DNA of 64,000 nt. Origin: Bradyrhizobium sp. ORS 278 (lineage in GTDB: Bacteria > Pseudomonadota > Alphaproteobacteria > Rhizobiales > Xanthobacteraceae). The notes below the pieces were generated by a model. It did not search any database. It worked only from the letters and a program-made list of their open reading frames with translations, and had not been told where the DNA came from. Made by a program: the position numbers and the translations under genes. The DNA lies in the NCBI RefSeq assembly GCF_000026145.1, contig NC_009445.1, positions 4,092,001-4,156,000 on the forward strand, written 5' to 3'. This document shows positions 9,932 to 64,000 of the stretch, piece after piece. The stretch's first letter is position 1. Each line of letters starts with the position of its first letter.

Positions 9932-12900
9932 TCATTTCGCTGCGCGGACCTCCACGGCGCCTGTCCCGGTCCGACCATAGCGCGAGGGATTGTACATGTC
10001 CTCGACATAGGCCTGCGGCAGCACGTATTTGCCCGGCGACACCGCGCGCACGACATAGGCCACCGTGAACACCGCCTTGGAATTCGCGGCGCGGTCGAGG
10101 GCTGCCGTGAAGCGGTCGTCGCGGAACTCGGTATTGACGGGTTCCTGGCCGTCCTCGATCCAGTCGAGCGTGCCGGTGTCGCCCGACGACACAAGATGCG
10201 GATTGTCGATCTCGAGCCCCGCCGGCAGATAGTCCGACACCATGATGTGCCCGTATTCCGGCTTGGCCTCGGTGACCTTCAGCACAACGGCGAAACGGTC
10301 GTTCTGCTTCACAGTCTTGATGTCGGCCGGCTTGCCGTCGAGCGTGTAGTAGCCGCGCTCGATCTTGAAGCCGTTCGACGCCGCCGGCTCCGGCGTCAGC
10401 GGCGAGCCTGACACCGAGACCACCGCCTGCACCGGCGCCTCGCCGGTGTTGGTGATCTTCAGCGGCTGGCCCGACAGCTCCGCCGCCTTGTAGCTGCGGT
10501 ACATCGCCTGCTTCACCGCCTGGCCGTTGACATCGAGCGTCAGCGTCTCCTTGGCAAGCGCGCGCGCCGCCAGCACCATCCACGCATTCTCCTGCGTCGA
10601 GGTGTACGGCGTCAGCCCGCGCGCGGCCTCGACGCGGGCCACCGCCTGCGTGAGCGTCGCGCGCGGCGCGTTGCCCTCGCCCGCCAGTGACACCAGCGCG
10701 GCGGCGTCGCGCAGGTCCGAGCCGTAGTCGGTGCGGCCGAACACCAGCACCGGCTTTGGCGCGAGGCTGTCGGCGGCGGCACCATAGACCCGCTCGGCGC
10801 GGGCGCGGTCGCCGACCAGCGCGAGCGCCGCGGCGAGCTGCGCCTTGGCAATTGGAGTTGCCAGATTGCCGAGCTTGGTGTCGGCGAGATAGCGCAGGTC
10901 GCCGATCGGCGCCGCGCCATTGCGCGCCAGCACGTAGAGGCCGTAGGCGAGGTCGCGGCCGCCGGTCTTCTCCGGCTCCTCGGCATTGACCACCGAGTTC
11001 CTGACGCGGTCGAGCGCGCTCTTGAACAGCACGTCCGGCACCGCAAAGCCCTTTTCGCGGGCGCGGGTCAGGAAGTCCGTGACATAGGCATCCAGCCAGG
11101 GATCGTCGCCGCCCGCCGACCACAGGCCGAACGAGCCATTGGATCCCTGACGAGCAAGGAGCCGATCGATGGAATCGCGGATCCGCTGGTCGACCTCGGT
11201 GTCCATGGCTAGATGCGCGCCGGCCGCGAGCTCGTTGACATAGAGCAGCGGCATCGCCCGGCTGGTGATCTGCTCGGAGCAGCCATGCGGATAGCGGTCG
11301 AGCGCCTTCAGGATGGTCGCCGCGTCGAGCGCGGTCGACAGCCCCGCCGACAGCGACACCGTGCCGGTGCCCGCCACGAGATCGCTGAACATGTCCGACG
11401 TCAGCGTCAGGCTCTCGCCCTTGGCCAAGGTCCTGATCGAACGCCGCGCCAGCACTTGCGTCGCGGGCTTGACGTCCAGCTGATAGTGCCGCGCCAGCGC
11501 CAGCCCGTTCGGGCCCTTGATGTCGACGTCGAGCTGGGCCGCGCCGGTGCCCGAGGCGTCCAGCGGCAAGGTCGACGACCCCCGCTGCTTGGCCGCGAGC
11601 TTGATCGTCACATTAGCATTGCCCGAGACCTTTACCGGCCCGCTCGCCTTGACGGCCACGACGTAGTCGCCCGGCGCGCCCTCGACATTGTCGACGTCGA
11701 ACGACAGCGTGCCGCGATCGCCGCTCAGCAAGAAGCGCGGCAAGGTCGCCGTCAGCACCACGGGATCGCGCACGGTGACGTCGATGGTGGCGCGGCCGAC
11801 CTTGGTCGCGCTCCAGGCCACCGCCATGACGCGCGCCGTGCCGGCGAACTCCGGAATGTCGAACGACACCTCCGCGTTGCCGTCAGGGCCGACCGTGACG
11901 AGCCCCGAATACAGCGCCAGCGGCTTTTGCGTCGGCGGCGAGCCCTGCAGCTCGGCGCCGCCGCCGTCACCGCCGGAGCGGATCTGGCCGCGCGTGCCCT
12001 GCATGCCGTCGATCAGCTGCCCATAGAGATCGCGGATCTCGGCCGAGAGCTGGCGCTGGCCGAGATAGTAGTCGTCCGGCGCCGGCGGCTTGTAGTTGGT
12101 GAGGTTGAGAATGCCGACGTCGACCGCCGCGATCACGATCTTGGCGTCCTCGCCGGGATTGAGCCCGCCGATCTTGACCGGGATCTTCAAGCTGGAGCCC
12201 GGCCGCACCAGCGCCGGCGGCGTCAGCGCGACATTGAGCGTGCGCGCCTGCTTGTCGATGCCGAACCAGGCAACGCCGAGCGCGCGGCCCGGCATGCGCT
12301 GCGCGGCCGCATCGAGCGGACGCCGGAGCGTCGTCACCACGTAAGCCCCCGTGCCCCAGTCCTTGCCGACGGGAAGCTTGACCTGGTTGGTGCCTTCCTT
12401 GACCTCGGTGGTCTGCGTCGTCAGCAGCCGGTCGCCGAGCACGTTGACCGTGAGCTTGCCGGCGGTGCGCGCATTCACCGTGACGACCATCGTGTCGCCC
12501 GACTGGTATTGCGGCTTGTCGAGCGAGGTCTCGAGGAGATCCGGCGTATCGGCGCTGCCGTCGGTGTACCAGCCGACATCGAACTGCAGCGACGTCACCG
12601 GCCCATCGGCCTCGGCCGACTTGACGTCGAGCCGGTAGCGCCCGGCCTCCGGCTGAAAGCTCAGCCGCGCCGGCTTATTCGCCGATATCGTGATGTCGCC
12701 ATCGCCGACGCGTGTCGTCGACTTGACCGGCTCGTACTCCCAATAGGCGTTCTGCCTGTACCATTGATAGCGCGACTCGATCTTCAGCAGCTCGTAGCGC
12801 AAGCCGTTGCGCGCCAGCGTCTTGCCGTCAGGCGAGACGAACACGACGTCGAACTCGGCCTTGTCGCCCTCGCCGACGCTCTTGCCGGAGAATGACGGCT

Positions 12901-54539: not shown

Positions 54540-55577
54540 TCATTCTGCCGGCTGGAACATCGCCGGACGACCGCGCTGGCTGTCGAGCCAGCCTGCGAGC
54601 CGATCCATCAAGCCGCCGCCGCTCGACTCCGACGGCTGGGCCGACGAGACGAACGGATCGCAATGGCACTTCGCGCCAGCCGAGCGCGCCATCTTCGCCA
54701 CCGCTTCAGTCATCGCCGGCGCACCGCAGGTGTAGACCACGTCGTTCGGCGTAAGCTCGGGCATGTGCTCGGTCGGACGGCCGCTGCGAATCGCCGGCGA
54801 GACGTTCTGCGGCTCCGACACGATCGGGATGATCTTCACATTCGGGAAGCGCGCCAGGCGGCAAAGCGCCTGGTGCATGTAGAACGATTGCAGCGTCCGC
54901 GACACGACGATGAAGACGATCTCGCGCTTCGGATTTTCGGTGATCGCGGCGACCGCGATCGCCCACATCGGCGCAAAGCCCGTGCCGCTCGCGACCAGGA
55001 TGATTCGGCCGCGATGCTTCTGCCGGAAGAAGGCGGTGCCGAGCGGCGCGGTCAGCTTGACACGGTGGCCGACCTGAATGTCCCGGCCGAGCGCCGACGA
55101 CACCAGGCCGTCCTTGAGGATGCGGATGTGGAGATAGAGAAGATGGCTGTCGGGCGCGCCAACCATCGGATAGGTCGGGCTGTAGCAGCGCGTCGGAAAA
55201 CCGCGATACTGCACCTTCGCATACTGGCCGGGGAAGAAGCGCAGCGGCTTCGGCATCTCGATCGTGACCCCGACCACGTCGGGCGCCAGACGAACGAGAT
55301 CACCGACCTCGCAGTTCATCGTCACCGTCTCCGGCACCGGCTCGGTGATGATCTTCAGATCCGACACCACGCGCGCCTGGCAGGCATGTGCCATGTCGCC
55401 TTCCATGCCGCCGAACAGCTTGCCGTCGACAACCGTCACCTTGCAGGAGCCACAAATACCACTGCGGCAGTCATGGGGCAGATCCACGCCACTGTTGATG
55501 GCGCCGTCGAGCAGGATATCGCCCACATTCGCGTAGAACGTTTCCCTGTTGTACTGGATTTTGCAAATCTTACCCAT
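54540..55577 (-). CDS. 2Fe-2S ferredoxin / FAD / NAD(P) oxidoreductase
   Basis: A 345-residue reductase of the phenol-hydroxylase/CDP-6-deoxy reductase type. The N-terminal ferredoxin has CRSGICGSCKV plus a later HACQARV cysteine (the Cx4Cx2C...C plant-type set). The FAD domain has the RCYSPTYP motif and the NAD domain has LVASGTGFAPMWAIAV and VYTCGAPAM. It moves electrons between NAD(P)H and a partner through FAD and 2Fe-2S. The ATG at 55577 overlaps the upstream stop (TGATG) and has GAGG seven bases before it, so it is coupled to the cytochrome gene. Confidence 0.9.
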   Translation of the reverse strand: MGKICKIQYNRETFYANVGDILLDGAINSGVDLPHDCRSGICGSCKVTVVDGKLFGGMEGDMAHACQARVVSDLKIITEPVPETVTMNCEVGDLVRLAPDVVGVTIEMPKPLRFFPGQYAKVQYRGFPTRCYSPTYPMVGAPDSHLLYLHIRILKDGLVSSALGRDIQVGHRVKLTAPLGTAFFRQKHRGRIILVASGTGFAPMWAIAVAAITENPKREIVFIVVSRTLQSFYMHQALCRLARFPNVKIIPIVSEPQNVSPAIRSGRPTEHMPELTPNDVVYTCGAPAMTEAVAKMARSAGAKCHCDPFVSSAQPSESSGGGLMDRLAGWLDSQRGRPAMFQPAE

Positions 55578-57508
55578 CACTGCACCTCAAGTCGCATCGG
55601 CCGGATCTGCCTCGTATGTCGGATCTGGGTGTGGTCGAACGCCGCGACTCGCATGAAGACACCGTTCTTGATCGGTACGTCGTACTTGCTTTTCGTGTCC
55701 AATTTGCGGGCAATTTCGAGCGTCCAGTGGCCCGCCGCCCAACGCGCCGCACAGCGAATGTCGGCGCGGTCGCCGGTGAACTCGCCGCTGATCAAGACTC
55801 CGGGCACGACCGTGCCGATCGGCGTCTGCGCATCCGCCTCCGCGGAGTAGGGCACGGATTCCGCTTCCGTCATGAACCAGCGCGCCCCCTCGCTCTCGCC
55901 GATGTTCGGATCGAGATTGATCTCGCCCATCGCCGCCGTCATCGCAGCGACGTCCTTCGGCAGGCGCTTCGGTCTCACGCCCCGATTGCCCAGCCTGGCG
56001 GCCTCCCTGTCGATCACGAAGTTGTCCGTGTAGTTGGCAGTTCCCGGATCCGGCGCAAACCCTCCCTTGTAGGGCGTCAGTCCTTTCACCTGATCCGGCG
56101 TCGGTTCGGCAGGAGGCCCGAAATGATCGTCGTCCATCCAGCCCGTCGGACCGCCGCTCGTGGCCTTCCACAGCCATGCATCGGCGTAGAGATTCGGCGC
56201 CGGCGTGTAGTGAATGCCGCGGCCCGACAGCGTCGCCGGCTTGTCCGGCATCGGCTGCGAGCTCATGTGGAACGTACGGTCCGCCGCCAAGGTGATCGGC
56301 AGGGTGGTGAACAGCAGCGAGAACTTGTCCTCGTTGAAGTCGTTCTCATCGCCCTTGTCGAAGCCGTTCTGCAGCAGATGCCAGCCGTCAGCCTTCTTGA
56401 TCAGCGGCAATTGCTTCAGCGAGCGCGTCGGATCCTCCCAGATGACGAGGAAGTACACCCACGTGCCGTCATGCGCCGCCTTGATCCACACCTTCGACTC
56501 GCCGGTGCCGTCGAAATTGTCGCCCTGGTTGGTCGTCACCATGTGCGGCTGGATGTTGCGCCAGACGCGATCGGACGAATCACCGTCGAGGGTCGGAGCA
56601 TCTGACGTGGCAATCCGATACACCGTCACCGTATCCTCGGCGTAGTAGTCGGCCGCGAACATCGCGGAACCGATCACGATGGCTGCGGCCGTCGCGACCA
56701 TGAACGGATTGGCCTGGAACGTCGGGTTGCGGCGACGGGAATTGCCCTTCGCGGGCGCCGGGGGACGCATGCGGCCTGCCGGCATGCGTGGCTCGGGACG
56801 TCCCCGCATCGGCTCCTCCATGCGCCGCGGCGCCGGCATCGGCTCACGCACCGCCTGACGTGCGGCGGCAGGCGCAGGCTTTTTGGGCGGGGCTTCGGCC
56901 TCCTCGAGCTTCTCGGACTGCTCGACGAGCATGGTGAGAAGTTCGACCGGATCGAGCTTCGGCGGCGGCGGCGGCAGGGGTGCGGGACGGAACACGCGAT
57001 ACAACTGCATCTTTCCACCGATGCTGAAATGAACCAGGACGTGGAGCACGACGAAGACAGGGATGACCCACGTGGCGTACCAATGGATCATCATCGTCGA
57101 GTAGCCGGAGGCAACGCCGAAGAACAGCAGGCCGCCCGTGATGATCAGCGTGCCCATCGCGATGAAGAGCACCCAATGCAGCATGACGCTGATCGAGCCG
57201 AGCCGCGCCGGTCGGCGGCCGAGCAGCCCCTTGAAGCGCATCTTGTCGATGGCGACGCGGCGGCCAAGCCCCGACTTTGCGATGTAGATCATGTAGGCGA
57301 CCGCGACGCTCGCGAGCACGACGCCTGCGGGCATGTGCCATGTCCAGGTGCGATGCCGCGGCAGCATCCAATCGAGATTGTTGGCGATCCAAGCGTGGCC
57401 CGGCGCTTCCGTCGCCATGCGCAGCCCCGTGAGGAACGCGATGACGGTTGCGCCGACCAGCGTCCAATGGAGCAGGATCGTGCCGTAGTCGGTCTTTCGA
57501 ATTTTCAT
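55577..57508 (-). CDS. Cytochrome b561-type membrane domain fused to an ethylbenzene-dehydrogenase-like haem domain
   Basis: A 643-residue protein. Residues about 1-195 form a four-helix b-type cytochrome (DYGTILLHWTLVGATVIAF, HMPAGVVLASVAVAYM, VMLHWVLFIAMGTLI, MIHWYATWVIPVFVVLHVLVHF) with paired histidines for two b haems. A Pro/Arg-rich linker (about 200-300) leads to another helix (ATAAAIVIGSAMFAADYYA) and then a large domain of the EB_dh (ethylbenzene dehydrogenase gamma) type with APTLDGDSSDRVW and KVWIKAAHDGTWVYFLVIWEDPT. That domain binds haem in related periplasmic proteins. GGAGG lies before the ATG at 57508. With the coupled ferredoxin reductase downstream it looks like a transmembrane electron carrier. 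Confidence 0.86.
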   Translation of the reverse strand: MKIRKTDYGTILLHWTLVGATVIAFLTGLRMATEAPGHAWIANNLDWMLPRHRTWTWHMPAGVVLASVAVAYMIYIAKSGLGRRVAIDKMRFKGLLGRRPARLGSISVMLHWVLFIAMGTLIITGGLLFFGVASGYSTMMIHWYATWVIPVFVVLHVLVHFSIGGKMQLYRVFRPAPLPPPPPKLDPVELLTMLVEQSEKLEEAEAPPKKPAPAAARQAVREPMPAPRRMEEPMRGRPEPRMPAGRMRPPAPAKGNSRRRNPTFQANPFMVATAAAIVIGSAMFAADYYAEDTVTVYRIATSDAPTLDGDSSDRVWRNIQPHMVTTNQGDNFDGTGESKVWIKAAHDGTWVYFLVIWEDPTRSLKQLPLIKKADGWHLLQNGFDKGDENDFNEDKFSLLFTTLPITLAADRTFHMSSQPMPDKPATLSGRGIHYTPAPNLYADAWLWKATSGGPTGWMDDDHFGPPAEPTPDQVKGLTPYKGGFAPDPGTANYTDNFVIDREAARLGNRGVRPKRLPKDVAAMTAAMGEINLDPNIGESEGARWFMTEAESVPYSAEADAQTPIGTVVPGVLISGEFTGDRADIRCAARWAAGHWTLEIARKLDTKSKYDVPIKNGVFMRVAAFDHTQIRHTRQIRPMRLEVQ

Positions 57509-58450
57509 GCGTGCGCCTCCCGCCTTGCGCACACGCAATCGGCGCGACGCACCGCTGAACCGGTGATCGACTCTTGTTTCAGCGGCCCGAGCCCGTTTCG
57601 GCTCGTCGAACACGCACCCCTGAACTGCGCCCCCCGCTCTGAATGCATTCCTGCATCACGCGCCCCGATGATGGTGATGTCGTCCAACAACTCTTCGTCC
57701 CCCGGATACTCTCAAGCGGCAACTTTTAGTCTGCCTTCGGCGTCGACCGCGCCGTCCTCCATTCCGATCGTTGCCACGCTACGATTGAACGCGACCCCTT
57801 GGATCACGCCTGCAATTGGTCAGTCGTTGCTGTCCGGGCCGGTGACGGGTTGCCCGGATCGCATGAAAACTGACCGCTCTTTCCTCCTCTGATTTGTTTC
57901 ATCATCGCTGTCAGAGCGAGCACGCGGCACAGCGGCGAAGCGCCACTACCGCGAAACCACCGTGACGCTGTCGGCCACTCATTGTGCCCGCGTTGCGAGA
58001 GTGCGTGCGCAAAGCTGGGTGTCCATGTGTTGCCGCCGTCGCCATGGTCGCTCTCCGCACCGCCGTCGAATACCGCACGCTCGTGATGACAACGCCTGTG
58101 CGTTGCACCGCAGGAAGATTTATTCGCCTTCGTGGCGTCATTCGGCCCGGACCACGGCCAATGAGCGCAGAACCAAGGTGATAGGCGGACGAATGTGTGA
58201 CGCGCGTTGTGCGCCAGAGCCCTCATCGCGCCGCAACCATCGAAGATCACAAATGGATTTCGAACTACGCCGACAGTGACGGCGTGTGCCGCATTTTCCA
58301 GCAACCAGTCTCGCGCTCTGCGGCCTCCCGGAGATTTTCTCCCGCAGCGTGTGACAGAAAGGGCCGCGTGTCTCATTGTTGCCGGAAAATCGTCGGCATC
58401 GACTGTCAAGAGCGCTGATTGAAGCACTAGCCCTTGGGAGACGCGCCTGG
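57509..58450. other. Long divergent intergenic region
   Basis: About 940 bases between the divergent cytochrome and secretion genes with no gene I can support. Short frames on both strands lack both good ribosome binding sites and protein-like composition. It should hold the promoters of both operons. Confidence 0.4.
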
Positions 58451-60316
58451 ATGAGTCTGGCTCAAGACCGGCCCCGAAACAAAGCCGCGGCTGCCTTAAC
58501 CGACCTTCTCTCGGGAAGCGACGATCCTGTCACGCGTGGATTGCGTCAAGCGGTCCGGCGCATGGCGGGGATCGGCGTATTCAGTGGCGTGATCAACATC
58601 CTGATGCTCTCGGGCTCGGTCTACATGATGCAGGTCAACGACCGCGTCGTTCCGAGCAAGAATCTGGCGACACTCATCGGCCTGTCGGTGATGATTCTCG
58701 CGGCCTACTTGATTCAGGGCTATTTCGACGCGCTACGCTCGCGAATGCTGTGCCGGGTCGCCACCGTTTTCGATGCCAGCTTGCAGGACGCGATCCATCA
58801 CGCTTTGGCCACACTTCCGCTGCGCGGCACCAAGCCGATGCTGATGCAGCAGCCACTGCGCGATCTCGATCAGTTGCGCGCCTTCATGTCGAGCATGGGC
58901 CCGACCGCCTTTCTCGACATGCCCTGGATTCCGATCTTCCTGATCGGGATGTTCCTGTTCCATCCGCTGATCGGCATCACGGCCATCATCGGCACCGCGG
59001 CCATCATCTCGATGACGCTGATCACCGACCGCCTGTCGAAACAGGCGAGCAAATCTGCCAGTGACACCAGCGCGGCCCGCCAGGTGCTCGCGGATGCCAC
59101 GCAGCGAAATGCGGAAGTGATTCGCGCGCTCGGCATGCTCGACCGCTTCTCGGCGCGCTGGAACGCGGTCAACGAGAAGTATCTGAAGGACAATATCCGC
59201 GCGAGCGACGTCTATTCCAACCTTGGCGCGGCGGCGAAAGTGCTGCGCTACATTCTGCAGTCCGGGATGCTGGGAATCGGCGCGGCGCTGGTCGTCTCCG
59301 AGCAAGCTTCGGGCGGCGTGATGATGGCCTCGTCGATCCTGATGGGGCGCGCGCTCGCCCCGATCGAGATCGCGCTGGGAAGCTGGAAGCAGTTGGTCGC
59401 CGCCCGCCAGGGCATTGCGCGTCTCCGCGATGTGTGCAGGGCGACCGCCAAGCCCGAAGCGCCTCCGGTCGCGCTGCCGCGTCCGTGCCGCGAGCTGTCG
59501 GTTCAGGAGCTCACGGTCGCGGCGCCCGGAACCGATCGTCCAATCGTTCACAACGTGTCGTTCTCGATCCAGGCCGGCACGGGTCTCGCGCTGCTCGGCG
59601 CCAGCGCATCCGGCAAGACCTCGCTTTCCAAGGCGTTGGTTGGCGTCTGGCCCGCCTTGAACGGCAGCGTCCGCCTCGATGGTGCTGCGCTCGACCAGTG
59701 GAGCAATGAGGAGCTCGGCCGCCATATCGGCTATCTGCCGCAGGACGTAGCGCTGTTCGACGGCAGCATCGCCGACAACATCTGCCGCTTCGACGAGAAT
59801 GCGACCTCCGATGCGATCCTCAAAGCGGCGCAGATCGCCGGCGTCCACGACATCATCCTGCGCCTGCCCGACGGTTATTCGACGCGAATCGGTCAGGGCG
59901 GCACGTCGCTGTCGGCTGGCCAGCGCCAGCGCGTCGGACTTGCACGCGCGGTGTATGGCGATCCGTTCCTGATCGTGCTCGACGAGCCGAATGCGAACCT
60001 GGACACCGACGGCGAGAACGCGCTCAGCCGCGCCATCCAGATCATGCGGCAGCAGAACCAGAGCATCGTCATCGTCATCTCGCATCGGCCGAGCGCGCTG
60101 AACGCATTGAACATGGCGCTGGTGCTCTATGAGGGCAAGGCGATCGCCTTCGGGCCGTGCCAGGAGATCTTCGCCCGCGTCGCCGGCGCCAAGCCACCCG
60201 CTGGCCCAGCCGTGACGCATGCCGCGGCCGCTGCGCCCCGGGTCGCCGCTCCGGCAGCGGCCCCAAATCCGAACGCCAGAATGCTTCGTCGCGCCGCCCC
60301 AGCAGAAAGCGCTTGA
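58451..60316 (+). CDS. Type I secretion system permease/ATPase
   Basis: A 621-residue PrtD/HlyB-type exporter. The membrane domain (about 40-320) includes SGVINILMLSGSVYMMQVNDRVVPS and the long helix FLIGMFLFHPLIGITAIIGTAA. The ABC domain has Walker A GASASGKTSL, signature LSAGQRQRVGLARAV and Walker B FLIVLDEPNANLD. The C-terminus is an Ala/Pro-rich tail. It powers one-step export of C-terminally targeted proteins through a HlyD adaptor and a TolC-like pore. GGGAG lies about ten bases before the ATG. The adaptor gene follows in three bases; the TolC component is not in the window. Confidence 0.92.
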   Translation: MSLAQDRPRNKAAAALTDLLSGSDDPVTRGLRQAVRRMAGIGVFSGVINILMLSGSVYMMQVNDRVVPSKNLATLIGLSVMILAAYLIQGYFDALRSRMLCRVATVFDASLQDAIHHALATLPLRGTKPMLMQQPLRDLDQLRAFMSSMGPTAFLDMPWIPIFLIGMFLFHPLIGITAIIGTAAIISMTLITDRLSKQASKSASDTSAARQVLADATQRNAEVIRALGMLDRFSARWNAVNEKYLKDNIRASDVYSNLGAAAKVLRYILQSGMLGIGAALVVSEQASGGVMMASSILMGRALAPIEIALGSWKQLVAARQGIARLRDVCRATAKPEAPPVALPRPCRELSVQELTVAAPGTDRPIVHNVSFSIQAGTGLALLGASASGKTSLSKALVGVWPALNGSVRLDGAALDQWSNEELGRHIGYLPQDVALFDGSIADNICRFDENATSDAILKAAQIAGVHDIILRLPDGYSTRIGQGGTSLSAGQRQRVGLARAVYGDPFLIVLDEPNANLDTDGENALSRAIQIMRQQNQSIVIVISHRPSALNALNMALVLYEGKAIAFGPCQEIFARVAGAKPPAGPAVTHAAAAAPRVAAPAAAPNPNARMLRRAAPAESA

Positions 60317-60319
60317 TCA

Positions 60320-62254
60320 ATGAAACACATCAACGACTTCAGGCCCTTCGATGACGACGACTATGTGCGACCGAAGACCCGTGCTGTCGGTCCCCAGGGC
60401 GATGCGCTGATACTCGAGTTGCAGCGATTGCAGGGCGCCTTCGACGAGGGCTCGGACGAGGACCCGCGGGCACGTCGTGGCGGCCGCGACGGCGGCAAGA
60501 AGCGGCGGCGTCCACCGCCGGCGCAGACGCGCGTCAAGCCGCGCAAGAAGAAGGGCAGCACCATGGGCCGCGCGCTCTCGCTGTTCGGACTCGGCGGCCA
60601 GGCTCAGCGGGAGCGTCATCGCGAGGGCATCCGCGAGATGGACTGGCAGAGGCCCGCGCCGGCGCGCGGACGCGAGCCGGAGCTGACACCGCCACCGCGC
60701 CATGCGCCTGCGCACATGCCGAACAACAACAATATGCCTGTGCTCGACGTCCGAGAGGCACGTCGCGACGCCGGCTTCGGTGACGCGCCGCGACTGGGGC
60801 AGCAGAACCTCCCTGCCCGCCTTGGTCAGGCGCCGGCCGTGCCGCAGACCGGCGTGCGCCGCCTCGTTGGAACCGCCAGCACCGCGTTGACGACCGGCAT
60901 GACGTTCATTGCGGCGCAGGGAACCGCGGCCGATCTCGACGATGATTCGGACGAGCAGCTCGTTCCGCGCGTCGGCCGGATGTTCGAAAACGAATTGCGT
61001 CTCGGCCTGCGCGTCCTGCTGGTCGCGGCCGTGTTCGGCGGCGGCTGGCTGACGCTGGTGCCGCTGGCCGGCGCAGTCGTCGTTCCCGGCAATCTCGTCG
61101 TGCAGTCCAACGTGAAGGCCATCCAGCATCCGACCGGCGGCATCATCGCCGAGATCAAGGTCGACAACGGCAAGCGCGTCGCCGCCGGCGACCTGCTCGT
61201 CCGGCTCGATGCGACGCAGAGCCAGGCGCAGCTGCAATCGATCACCAAGCAGCTCAACGAGCAGCGCGCCAAGATCGCGCGCCTGTCGGCTGAGCGCGAT
61301 GGTCTGGAGCAGCCGGAATACCCGGCCACGCTGACCTCACATACCGACGATCCGAACATTCGCGCCGTCATCGCATCGGAAAACGCGCTGTTCAAGGCCC
61401 GCGCGGTCACGCGCAAGAGCCAGAAGGAGCTGCTGCAGGGACGCATCGTCCAGCTCAACAACGAGATCAGCGGCATGGAGGCGCAGCTCGATTCGAAGAC
61501 CAAGCAGATCGACCTCATCAAGGGCGAGCTTGCCGGCGTGCAGGATCTCTACGACAAGCGCCTCGTCCCGCTGACCCGGCTCACAACGCTGCAGCGGGAA
61601 GCCGCGCGGATCGACGGCGAGCGCGGACAGCTGGTGTCGAGCGTCGCGGAAACGCGATCCAAGATCAGCGAGGCAGAGCTGCAGACGGTCAAGATCGATC
61701 AGGACTTCCGCAGCGAGGTCGTCAAGGACCTCAGCGAGTCGCAGGCCAAGGAAGGCGACCTGGTGGAAAAGGGCGTGGCCGCACGCGACCAGCTGGACCG
61801 CATCGAGATGCGCGCGCCGAATTCGGGCACCATCCACCAGCTCGCGGTTCACACCATCGGCGGCGTCATCAAGCCGGGCGAGACCATCATGGAGCTGGTG
61901 CCCGATTCGGACGAGCTGCAGGTCGAAGGGCACGTTCAGCCCAAGGACATCGATCACGTCCACACCGGACAGGACGCGATGGTGCACTTCAATGCCTTCA
62001 ACTCGCACACGACGCCGAAGTTGAGCGGCCAGGTCTCGTTCGTCTCGCCGGATATTACCAACGACCAGCGCACGGGCTCCACCTTCTACACGGTCAGGAT
62101 CACGCTGCCGGATGAGGAGCGGAAGCGGCTCGGCGACGTCAATCTGAAGCCGGGCATGCAGGCGGAGGTCTATGTCCAGACCGGCAGCCGGACGATGCTC
62201 AGCTACCTGATGAAGCCCGTTCTCGATCAGTGGCGCCGTGCCTTCGTGGAGTAA
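60320..62254 (+). CDS. HlyD-family periplasmic adaptor with long cytoplasmic extension
   Basis: A 644-residue adaptor. The first 220 residues are cytoplasmic, disordered, rich in Arg, Pro and Gln and very polar (RARRGGRDGGKKRRRPPPAQ, PELTPPPRHAPAHMPNNNN). A single membrane helix (about 227-250) leads to the lipoyl-like AIQHPTGGIIAEIKVDNGKRVAAGD, a coiled-coil hairpin (about 310-490), and the returning barrel with VQPKDIDHVHTGQDAMV and TFYTVRITLPDEE. The HlyD/PrtE part is of normal size; the extension is far longer than the usual 10-60 residues. It follows the ATPase by three bases. Confidence 0.9.
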   Translation: MKHINDFRPFDDDDYVRPKTRAVGPQGDALILELQRLQGAFDEGSDEDPRARRGGRDGGKKRRRPPPAQTRVKPRKKKGSTMGRALSLFGLGGQAQRERHREGIREMDWQRPAPARGREPELTPPPRHAPAHMPNNNNMPVLDVREARRDAGFGDAPRLGQQNLPARLGQAPAVPQTGVRRLVGTASTALTTGMTFIAAQGTAADLDDDSDEQLVPRVGRMFENELRLGLRVLLVAAVFGGGWLTLVPLAGAVVVPGNLVVQSNVKAIQHPTGGIIAEIKVDNGKRVAAGDLLVRLDATQSQAQLQSITKQLNEQRAKIARLSAERDGLEQPEYPATLTSHTDDPNIRAVIASENALFKARAVTRKSQKELLQGRIVQLNNEISGMEAQLDSKTKQIDLIKGELAGVQDLYDKRLVPLTRLTTLQREAARIDGERGQLVSSVAETRSKISEAELQTVKIDQDFRSEVVKDLSESQAKEGDLVEKGVAARDQLDRIEMRAPNSGTIHQLAVHTIGGVIKPGETIMELVPDSDELQVEGHVQPKDIDHVHTGQDAMVHFNAFNSHTTPKLSGQVSFVSPDITNDQRTGSTFYTVRITLPDEERKRLGDVNLKPGMQAEVYVQTGSRTMLSYLMKPVLDQWRRAFVE

Positions 62255-62315
62255 CAAGATCTGACATGTCACGGGCTGCGTCCGCAAGGGACGCAGACCG
62301 GCTCGGCCGATCAGC

Positions 62316-64000
62316 ATGACGATTGCAAATTTTCCCCGCGCCTCGGGCGCGACGATGGTGCCGCCAGTTGCGATCCCGCCAGCGGATGGCCGACAGATGG
62401 TCTCGGCCGGTACGGCGGAGCGGCTTGCGAAGCCGCGACTGCCGCCACCAGCGGCCGTTCCGACTCAGGAAGGCCCCCAGGGGCTTCGGTTCGATTTCAA
62501 CGACGGTTGCCGGGTGATGCTGCCCGACACCGGACAGGCGTGGCGCGTCCGGCTGAGCGATCTCGAGACCGCGAATGTCCTGTTCGACATCGAGCTTCGC
62601 TCGGGGCACGTCAACAGCAACAAACGATATTTCGTGCCCTTCAGGCTCGAGGTCTGGTCCGCGCAGACTCTGTTGCTGCGCCACGACTACGACGCCAGCG
62701 GGCGCGACATCCTGATCCAGTTTCCGATCGGCACCATCGGCGACATCATCGGCTGGCTCGGCTACGCGATGAAGTTCAAGGAGATGCACAAGTGCCGACT
62801 GACCTGCGCGCTGGGCGAGCCGCTGATCGCGCTGTTCCAGGCCGCCTATCCCGACGTCGCCTTCGTCACACACGATCAGATTCAGGCTGAGCGCTATTAC
62901 GCCACCTACTCCGTCGCCCTGTTCTTCGACGACGCCGCCCAGGTGTATCAGCCTTGCGACTTCCGGCAGGTCGGCCTGCATCGCACTGCAGCCCATATTC
63001 TCGGCGTCGATCCGGCGGAACGCCCGCCGCGCGTTGCGCTCGATGACAACAGCCGACCGATCGCGGAGCCGTATGTCTGCATCGCCGTGCAGGCCACGAC
63101 CCAATGCAAGCATTGGAACAATCCTGAAGGCTGGCACAGCCTCGTGGACTTCCTCAAGGCCACCGGCTATCGCGTGATCTGCATCGATCAGAAAGCGGAG
63201 AGCAGCCGCGGCGATTTCCGCACCCGGATTCCCGCTGACGCCGAGGACCAGACCGGCGAACGACCGCTGCGGGAGCGCGCGCGCTGGCTGCGGCACGCCG
63301 ACGTCTTCATCGGGCTGTCCTCGGGCCTGTCCTGGCTCGCCTGGGCCGTGGGCACGCCCGTGGTGCTGATCAGCGGCTTCACTGATCCGATCAACGAGTT
63401 TGCGACGCCTTACCGCGTTATCAATCGGCACGCCTGCAACAGCTGCTGGAATGATGCGCGTCACCGCTTCGACCACACCGACGCGCTGTGGTGTCCGCGT
63501 TGGAAGGACACGCCGCGGCAGTTCGAATGCACGCGCCTGATCAAGGCTAAGCAGGTCGAAGGCATGTTGCGCAGAGTGCCGGGCTTCGGGCAGGGATTGC
63601 TCCCCAAGCCGCCCGGGCCGCCGGCGGCGCAGCAGTTGACCCAGCCGACGAACGCTCCGCCGCTCGCCGCGGGTTTTCCGGGCGCAGCCGGCAAGGATCA
63701 GCCGATTGCACTCGCTGCCGTGCTGGCGCAGCCGCGCGGAGAGGTTCCGCATGGCGGCCTCGCTTCAGGCGTGACCGTGGCCGCCGGCATTTTGCTGGAT
63801 CAGGCCGCCGCACAGATTTCAGAAGGCGACCGCAACGCAAGGGCCAGCGATCTCCCCGGTGCCCTGCAGAACTACAAGCAGAGCATCGATATCGTCCGGC
63901 GGCTGACGCAGGCCGATCCGGACAATGCCGGCTTCCAGCGCAACCTGTCCGTCGCCTTGAACCGGATCGGCGCCGTGCTGTTCGTTCAGCGCAATCTCCA
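62316..64000 (+). CDS. Aah/TibC-type (BAHT) O-heptosyltransferase fused to TPR-like repeats (3' end missing)
   Basis: Runs off the right edge; 561 codons visible. After a Pro/Ala-rich lead (1-55) comes a beta domain (GLRFDFNDGCRVMLPDTGQ, RSGHVNSNKRYFVPFRLEVW), then a GT-B glycosyltransferase with ILIQFPIGTIGDIIGWLGYAM and YVCIAVQATTQCKHWNNPEGW. The four-cysteine iron-binding pattern of the BAHT family is present: C374-x2-C377-x15-C393-x11-C405. These enzymes add heptose to serines of autotransporter adhesin repeats in E. coli. From about residue 496 the chain continues as TPR-like helices (QAAAQISEGDRNARASDLPG, then ALQNYKQSIDIVRRLTQADP). No strong ribosome binding site precedes the ATG. It begins 61 bases after the HlyD gene, so export and glycosylation appear linked. 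Confidence 0.85.
   Translation, partial: MTIANFPRASGATMVPPVAIPPADGRQMVSAGTAERLAKPRLPPPAAVPTQEGPQGLRFDFNDGCRVMLPDTGQAWRVRLSDLETANVLFDIELRSGHVNSNKRYFVPFRLEVWSAQTLLLRHDYDASGRDILIQFPIGTIGDIIGWLGYAMKFKEMHKCRLTCALGEPLIALFQAAYPDVAFVTHDQIQAERYYATYSVALFFDDAAQVYQPCDFRQVGLHRTAAHILGVDPAERPPRVALDDNSRPIAEPYVCIAVQATTQCKHWNNPEGWHSLVDFLKATGYRVICIDQKAESSRGDFRTRIPADAEDQTGERPLRERARWLRHADVFIGLSSGLSWLAWAVGTPVVLISGFTDPINEFATPYRVINRHACNSCWNDARHRFDHTDALWCPRWKDTPRQFECTRLIKAKQVEGMLRRVPGFGQGLLPKPPGPPAAQQLTQPTNAPPLAAGFPGAAGKDQPIALAAVLAQPRGEVPHGGLASGVTVAAGILLDQAAAQISEGDRNARASDLPGALQNYKQSIDIVRRLTQADPDNAGFQRNLSVALNRIGAVLFVQRNL

Follow-up and report, generated by a model that had tools for sequence, protein, structure and literature searches.

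At the right-hand edge of a 64,000-base window of the Bradyrhizobium sp. ORS 278 genome, a type I secretion system (T1SS) gene pair stands beside a gene for a heptosyltransferase of the BAHT family, followed by two genes for proteins that we call SubU. The locus is, in our judgment and by somewhat better than even, a glycosylation-plus-export unit, in which protein heptosylation would be coupled to type I export and the enzyme would have switched its acceptor to SubU. The window is the whole stretch analyzed, bases 4092001-4156000 of a 7,456,587-base single-contig genome, and its right flank is therefore readable. Positions above 64000 continue the window numbering, and L007 denotes the extended stretch over the locus. 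The genes concerned are:

58376-60316, + strand: PrtD-type T1SS exporter of the ATP-binding cassette (ABC) type, 646 amino acids from the first TTG; TIGR01842 (type_I_sec_PrtD) 671.6 bits, cut-off 510
60320-62254, + strand: HlyD-family T1SS periplasmic adaptor, 644 amino acids; TIGR01843 388.4 bits over residues 226-644, cut-off 208.65
62316-64445 (L007:5316-7445; the window holds 62316-64000), + strand: BAHT-family heptosyltransferase, 709 amino acids; TIGR04414 (hepto_Aah_TibC)
64983-68228: SubU-1, 1081 amino acids, two units of about 505 amino acids
68789-70633: SubU-2, 614 amino acids, one unit of about 505 amino acids
70854-75092 (L007:13854-18092): TPR-sulfotransferase, 1412 amino acids, directly 3' of SubU; two modules of tetratricopeptide repeats (TPR) plus a PF13469 sulfotransferase domain

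Matches to TIGR and Pfam models were judged against curated cut-offs. The ABC, HlyD and BAHT genes are contiguous, all on the + strand, and separated by 3 nucleotides (ABC-HlyD) and 61 nucleotides (HlyD-BAHT). All three products exceed the cut-offs of their families, which bears out the exporter ATPase, HlyD adaptor and glycosyltransferase that an earlier sequence-only reading had seen on one strand. That reading began the exporter at 58451, which is indeed an in-frame ATG, but the reading frame opens earlier, with the TTG at 58376. The exporter has PF00664 and PF00005 domains, and the adaptor carries an N-terminal extension of about 220 amino acids. Only seven HlyD genes pass the TIGR01843 cut-off in the 7.46-Mb genome, so the chance of finding one in a random 20-kb stretch is about 2%. 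Genes for a TolC-type channel (TIGR01844) occur over cut-off twice in the genome, at 4058540 and 2865065, neither adjacent to the locus.

The glycosyltransferase scores 641 bits against TIGR04414 (cut-off 200), 95.9 bits against PF21129 (TibC_1st), and 420.9 bits against TibC (PDB 4rap) over residues 45-421. A TibC-like core extends to about residue 421 and is followed by a low-confidence linker and a C-terminal TPR domain (PF13424, just over cut-off). This domain lies mostly beyond the window, the gene running 445 bases past the window end into it, and neither it nor a second BAHT in the same genome (see below) had been foreseen. In the structure model the TPR helices have values of the predicted local distance difference test (pLDDT) of mostly 80-97, and the overall mean is 73.6. 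TibC residue numbering was taken from PMC4358343 and mapped through the TibC alignment. The catalytic base D110 and the donor contacts T226, K230, R286, and W305 correspond to D143, T261, K265, R321, and W340, and the iron-finger cysteines 339, 342, 358, and 370 to C374, C377, C393, and C405. All four cysteines thus align to those of TibC, in agreement with the Aah/TibC class and four-cysteine pattern first assigned. An ADP-heptose kinase (TIGR02198, HldE kinase domain) is present over cut-off in 249 of 265 Bradyrhizobium genomes, with E 2.3e-113 in the genome studied here.

TIGR04414 is present in 37 of these 265 genomes, and all 37 full-length matches were mapped (L007, L040-L075), partial matches being set aside. 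The TPR-bearing form (TPR-BAHT) occurs at ten loci (L007, L062, L064, L065, L067, L068, L070, L071, L072, L074). At each of them the gene order is ABC-HlyD-BAHT-TPR-SubU, the TPR region being a separate open reading frame (ORF) in L064. Nine also have the TPR-sulfotransferase, and L064 stops at a contig edge. The ten enzymes form a single branch of a 100-row BAHT tree (support 100/100) and all conserve D110, T226, K230, R286, W305, F368, and the four cysteines. At the P300 position the clade has Ser, as does AAH, an enzyme with widened stereoselectivity that takes both heptose epimers (PMC4358343). Close relatives of the locus proteins bear the names Bradyrhizobium ORS 285, ORS 375, oligotrophicum S58, and ontarionense. 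The mapped stretches of the 27 other full-length BAHT loci contain no match to the TPR region and no SubU gene. An ABC and HlyD pair lies within about 9.5 kb at 31 of the 37 loci (30 without the second BAHT of our own genome). The remaining six comprise L043, L057, L058, and L075, which are cut by contig ends, and L045 and L051, which have full flanks and no such pair in view. Across the genus, a BAHT is found in 12 of the 14 genomes with a close SubU and in 25 of the 251 lacking one (Fisher p 7e-10, uncorrected for shared ancestry). The proposed coupling was to fail if no secreted substrate lay downstream or if the enzyme proved co-conserved with type V autotransporters only. Neither check refuted it: SubU candidates lie downstream, and the T1SS linkage is conserved, including the expected co-location of the three genes.

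Strand-loop-strand (SLS) target repeats, as defined by the curated model TIGR04415, were sought in 18 genomes. They gave no match in the nine other genomes with a full-length TPR-BAHT, nor in G142 and G207, which carry fragments of a BAHT, or in G150, which has SubU and no BAHT. All five control genomes with SLS-type BAHTs had matches, and in our own genome all 14 fall within one 3212-amino-acid ORF beside the second BAHT. Those nine genomes thus hold a BAHT without a detectable family-typical acceptor repeat.

The substrate had been predicted to lie to the right of the window and to be a large adhesin with RTX or SLS repeats. SubU-1 and SubU-2 are encoded directly there, but they are proteins of another kind: neither has a Pfam or NCBIfam match over cut-off (RTX, TIGR04415, and AIDA repeats included), a search for the GGxGxD motif found none, and the model is helical. 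On these grounds we rejected SubU as an RTX or SLS adhesin. It was likewise rejected as a type V autotransporter, given that neither protein has a C-terminal PF03797 beta-barrel and that the low-confidence tail has no strands of three or more residues. No signal-peptide-like stretch was found at the SubU N-terminus, where 12-mer hydropathy peaks at 1.34 within the first 60 residues. SubU-2 was modeled with AlphaFold2 from a 55-row alignment, giving a mean pLDDT of 68.1 and a predicted template modeling score of 0.63. The model consists of helices from about residue 30 to 465, without strands of at least three residues, and with block pLDDT values of mostly 70-97 and dips to 40-50. Its tail, residues 502-613, has pLDDT below 50; this region, Gly/Thr-rich in SubU, is probably disordered according to the model. 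A search yielded 393 homologues from 7995 scored candidates. Among the best 120 of the 393, those with names are mostly called 'hypothetical protein' or 'trimeric autotransporter adhesin'. In a further listing of homologues, most uncut sequences have a His-rich C-terminal stretch that closes with an HMW-like motif.

SubU also occurs apart from BAHT. Of the 265 genomes, 52 gave SubU matches, and among 36 further stretches chosen from genomes with BAHT or SubU matches, 34 contained a SubU gene by hidden Markov model. At 16 of these 34 loci SubU adjoins a closely related PrtD-type exporter, with HlyD at 15 (L112 has ABC only). The exporters score 954-1013 bits against that of the window, apart from one cut at a contig end (L108, 236 bits). 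No BAHT was in view at any of the 16; L106, from genome G150, has the order ABC-HlyD-SubU-sulfotransferase. The other 18 loci show no such exporter. Five are cut by contig ends, among them L131, which starts with an HlyD fragment, and L136, which holds a piece of a TPR-BAHT; the 13 on longer stretches comprise ten SubU paralogues from TPR-BAHT genomes, six of them orphans and four distant, and three orphans from elsewhere. The plain reading of this gene distribution is that SubU would be an old cargo of this T1SS, to which the BAHT was added later. In L106, L131, and L133 the TPR-sulfotransferase gene adjoins SubU and no BAHT is in view.

In the last 110 residues of SubU, Ser and Thr together average 23% at TPR-BAHT loci (14-32%; 18 proteins from nine loci, L064 being cut) and 13% at other loci (23 proteins). 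Exporter-linked SubU without BAHT averages 14.5% (15 of 16 loci; L141 missed the C-terminus filter), and the three orphans elsewhere 10%. The six orphan paralogues in TPR-BAHT genomes (L126-L130, L135), with no T1SS in view, have tails of 43% Ser+Thr.

Under the glycosylation-plus-export reading, the ABC exporter and HlyD would form a T1SS with one of the two TolC-type channels encoded elsewhere, and its cargo would be SubU-1 and SubU-2, the products of the neighboring genes. The TPR-bearing BAHT would move heptose from ADP-heptose to Ser/Thr residues of SubU in the cytoplasm, before export, perhaps within the Gly/Thr-rich tail. The TPR arm of OGT holds the substrates of that enzyme, and the TPR arm of BAHT may hold the flexible SubU tail in an OGT-like manner. 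We suggest that the TPR-BAHT derives from alphaproteobacterial BAHTs that already served SLS proteins beside T1SS genes. A flexible-tailed helical protein would then have replaced the beta-helix as acceptor, and the enzyme would have acquired its TPR domain while giving up the first of the two hydrophobic residues at the tip of the thumb, which builds the ring in TibC. The sulfotransferase encoded 3' may add sulfate to SubU. A stronger version holds that this BAHT branch has left the dodecamer/beta-helix mode altogether, and that the enzyme uses an OGT-like TPR arm to recruit the Thr/Gly-rich SubU tails, which it glycosylates and passes to the T1SS, with the TPR-sulfotransferase perhaps adding a second modification; this we offer tentatively, as rather more apt to be wrong than right.

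Several observations weigh against this coupling. The thumb tip of the window BAHT is D300-F301, and the hydrophobic pair that makes the dodecamer contact in TibC is not kept. In the ten TPR-BAHTs the F265 position is P (four), D (three), or A (three) vs hydrophobic in 90 of 90 other rows, and the V266 position is F, Y, or I, a one-column shift being possible in the alignment of this loop. The pair is a TibC-specific feature, outside the curated definition of TIGR04414. Because the TibC mutants F265D and V266D are inactive dimers (PMC4358343), the Asp in the window enzyme may mean an inactive or differently assembled protein, while the F, Y, or I retained at V266 could provide a shifted yet working contact. 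Equally, the TibC-type ring may have been lost in this clade. If activity were gone, SubU could still be T1SS cargo and the TPR-BAHT a cytoplasmic chaperone or targeting factor acting through its TPR domain, or simply a decayed enzyme; a chaperone role has been proposed for the unrelated N-glycosyltransferase HMW1C (PMC8151025). A decayed enzyme would not, however, be expected to keep D110, K230, R286, W305, and all four cysteines in ten of ten cases, and we regard this explanation as decidedly unlikely. Transfer of a sugar other than heptose, or building of a longer glycan, seems highly improbable: the residue check covered donor contacts known from TibC and, as in AAH, Ser stands in place of P300, but the enzyme keeps the contacts named for ADP-heptose and an ADP-heptose kinase is present.

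Gene arrangement and distribution also speak partly against the unit. SubU-1 and SubU-2 start 537 and 560 nucleotides after the preceding gene, and each is preceded by a 55-nucleotide element (L007:7738-7792 and 11590-11644) that sits 183-248 bases upstream of SubU genes in the TPR-BAHT clade. The element was scanned for at 16 of the 18 SubU genes of the clade (two missed the motif filter), and 15 of the 16 upstream regions match at least 42 of 55 positions, vs a shuffle maximum of 29; the start of the remaining gene is probably mis-called. The 30-base core has exactly two sites in its own genome at up to two mismatches, before SubU-1 and SubU-2. With these distances and an upstream element of their own, the SubU genes need not be transcribed together with the BAHT. 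Two of the 14 genomes with a close SubU have no BAHT (G150 and G205, the latter a fragmented assembly). The tails of the closest exporter-linked SubU without BAHT (L106, L107, L108) contain 19, 26, and 26% Ser+Thr, and those of the four distant paralogues in TPR-BAHT genomes average 11% (10-12%). Tail content tracks ancestry; it is no test of the BAHT and serves only to show candidate Ser/Thr sites. The enzyme might act in trans on some other protein, either the orphan SubU paralogues or an adhesin encoded elsewhere, with its position beside the T1SS genes a matter of history. BAHTs may be unlinked from their targets (PMC8151025), and both the separate upstream element and the six Ser/Thr-rich orphans without a T1SS in view would fit. 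Against this stand the gene order kept at ten of ten loci and the absence of TIGR04415 from all nine other TPR-BAHT genomes, and we give this explanation a minority share, larger than that of a non-enzymatic BAHT. Since the orphans are themselves SubU proteins, it also merges in part with heptosylation of SubU.

The second BAHT of this genome (6424627 to about 6441224, - strand; L228, L229) shows another arrangement. An HlyB-type ABC exporter with a C39-like domain (TIGR01846, 1037 bits), an HlyD (TIGR01843, 380 bits), two unknown ORFs, the 3212-amino-acid SLS protein (TIGR04415, 172.9 bits; PF16168; no PF03797 barrel), and the BAHT follow one another on the same strand. Like the window locus, it places a BAHT beside a T1SS with a candidate substrate lacking PF03797; it differs in its SLS acceptor, its HlyB-type exporter, and a BAHT without a TPR match. 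More widely, we considered the best 80 of 157 BAHT loci, 62 of them outside Bradyrhizobium and many of those with short flanks, a sample biased to near relatives because the search patterns came from the window enzyme. An ABC and HlyD pair accompanies six of the 62 (Xanthobacteraceae, Rhodospirillales, Enhydrobacter, and three Reyranella). PF03797 was found in the C-terminal 500 residues of none of ten chosen SLS proteins near T1SS genes, vs all ten SLS proteins chosen near BAHTs of Burkholderiales. In the BAHT tree, a moderately supported branch of 52 rows (86/91) takes in 36 of the 37 T1SS-linked rows and a further 16 that show no T1SS in view; it excludes L154 and the Burkholderiales rows. 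Beside three SLS-type BAHT loci we noted an FkbM-domain methyltransferase (PF05050, over cut-off; L042:10811-11674, L045:8568-9365, L043:10783-11583), which might methylate their product.

To the left of the exporter gene, the window encodes two redox proteins:

55577-57613, - strand: cytochrome b561/ethylbenzene-dehydrogenase-like haem protein, PF01292 and PF09459 over cut-off; divergent neighbor
54540-55580, - strand: 2Fe-2S/FAD oxidoreductase, partner of the cytochrome b561 gene; PF00111, PF00175, and PF00970 over cut-off

Both genes recur in the genus at SubU/T1SS exporter loci without BAHT, as judged by Pfam at L111 and L125 (reductase Pfam at L125) and by eye at others. The recurrence places these redox genes beside the gene for a His-rich exoprotein.

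The known acceptors of BAHTs are beta-helix type V autotransporters, as in the TibC/TibA and AAH/AIDA-I pairs of E. coli (PMC4358343), and BAHT/TibC-like enzymes are treated as modifiers of such autotransporters (PMC4358343, PMC8151025, PMC8498110, PMC3125207). The window BAHT shares family, catalytic residues, and iron finger with these enzymes and differs in its T1SS neighbors, helical candidate acceptor, TPR domain, and altered thumb tip. A precedent for modification plus type I secretion is the raxX-raxSTAB cluster of Xanthomonas (PMC6637879), where genes for a modifying enzyme, a T1SS, and a substrate also stand together; a sulfotransferase-domain gene lies 3' of SubU here. RaxX differs in being a short Tyr-sulfated peptide with a double-glycine leader, and the part of that source consulted names no glycosyltransferase. 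With PrtD-type T1SS the locus shares its exporter and adaptor families and a candidate cargo without a signal-peptide-like stretch; it differs in that SubU has no RTX motif and that genes for two enzymes of protein-modifying families accompany it. Neither a BAHT joined with a T1SS nor the BAHT, SLS, and HlyB-type T1SS arrangement of the second locus was found among the matches listed in the literature searched, from which subscription journals were mostly missing. Both the enzyme family and the exporter family are known; in the literature searched we found no description of the coupling (as had been supposed), of the apparent switch of acceptor, or of the SubU family.

The named carriers include the photosynthetic legume symbionts BTAi1 and ORS 285, and the product may accordingly bear on plant or environmental contact. 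If the unit works as proposed, cytoplasmic O-heptosylation in Bradyrhizobium would not be bound to autotransporters, and it would be asked how a modified and possibly folded protein crosses a T1SS and what a BAHT recognizes with no beta-helix on offer. The genus would provide a natural experiment, since related exporters and cargo occur both where the enzyme is present and where it is absent, and a single genome carries both types of BAHT.

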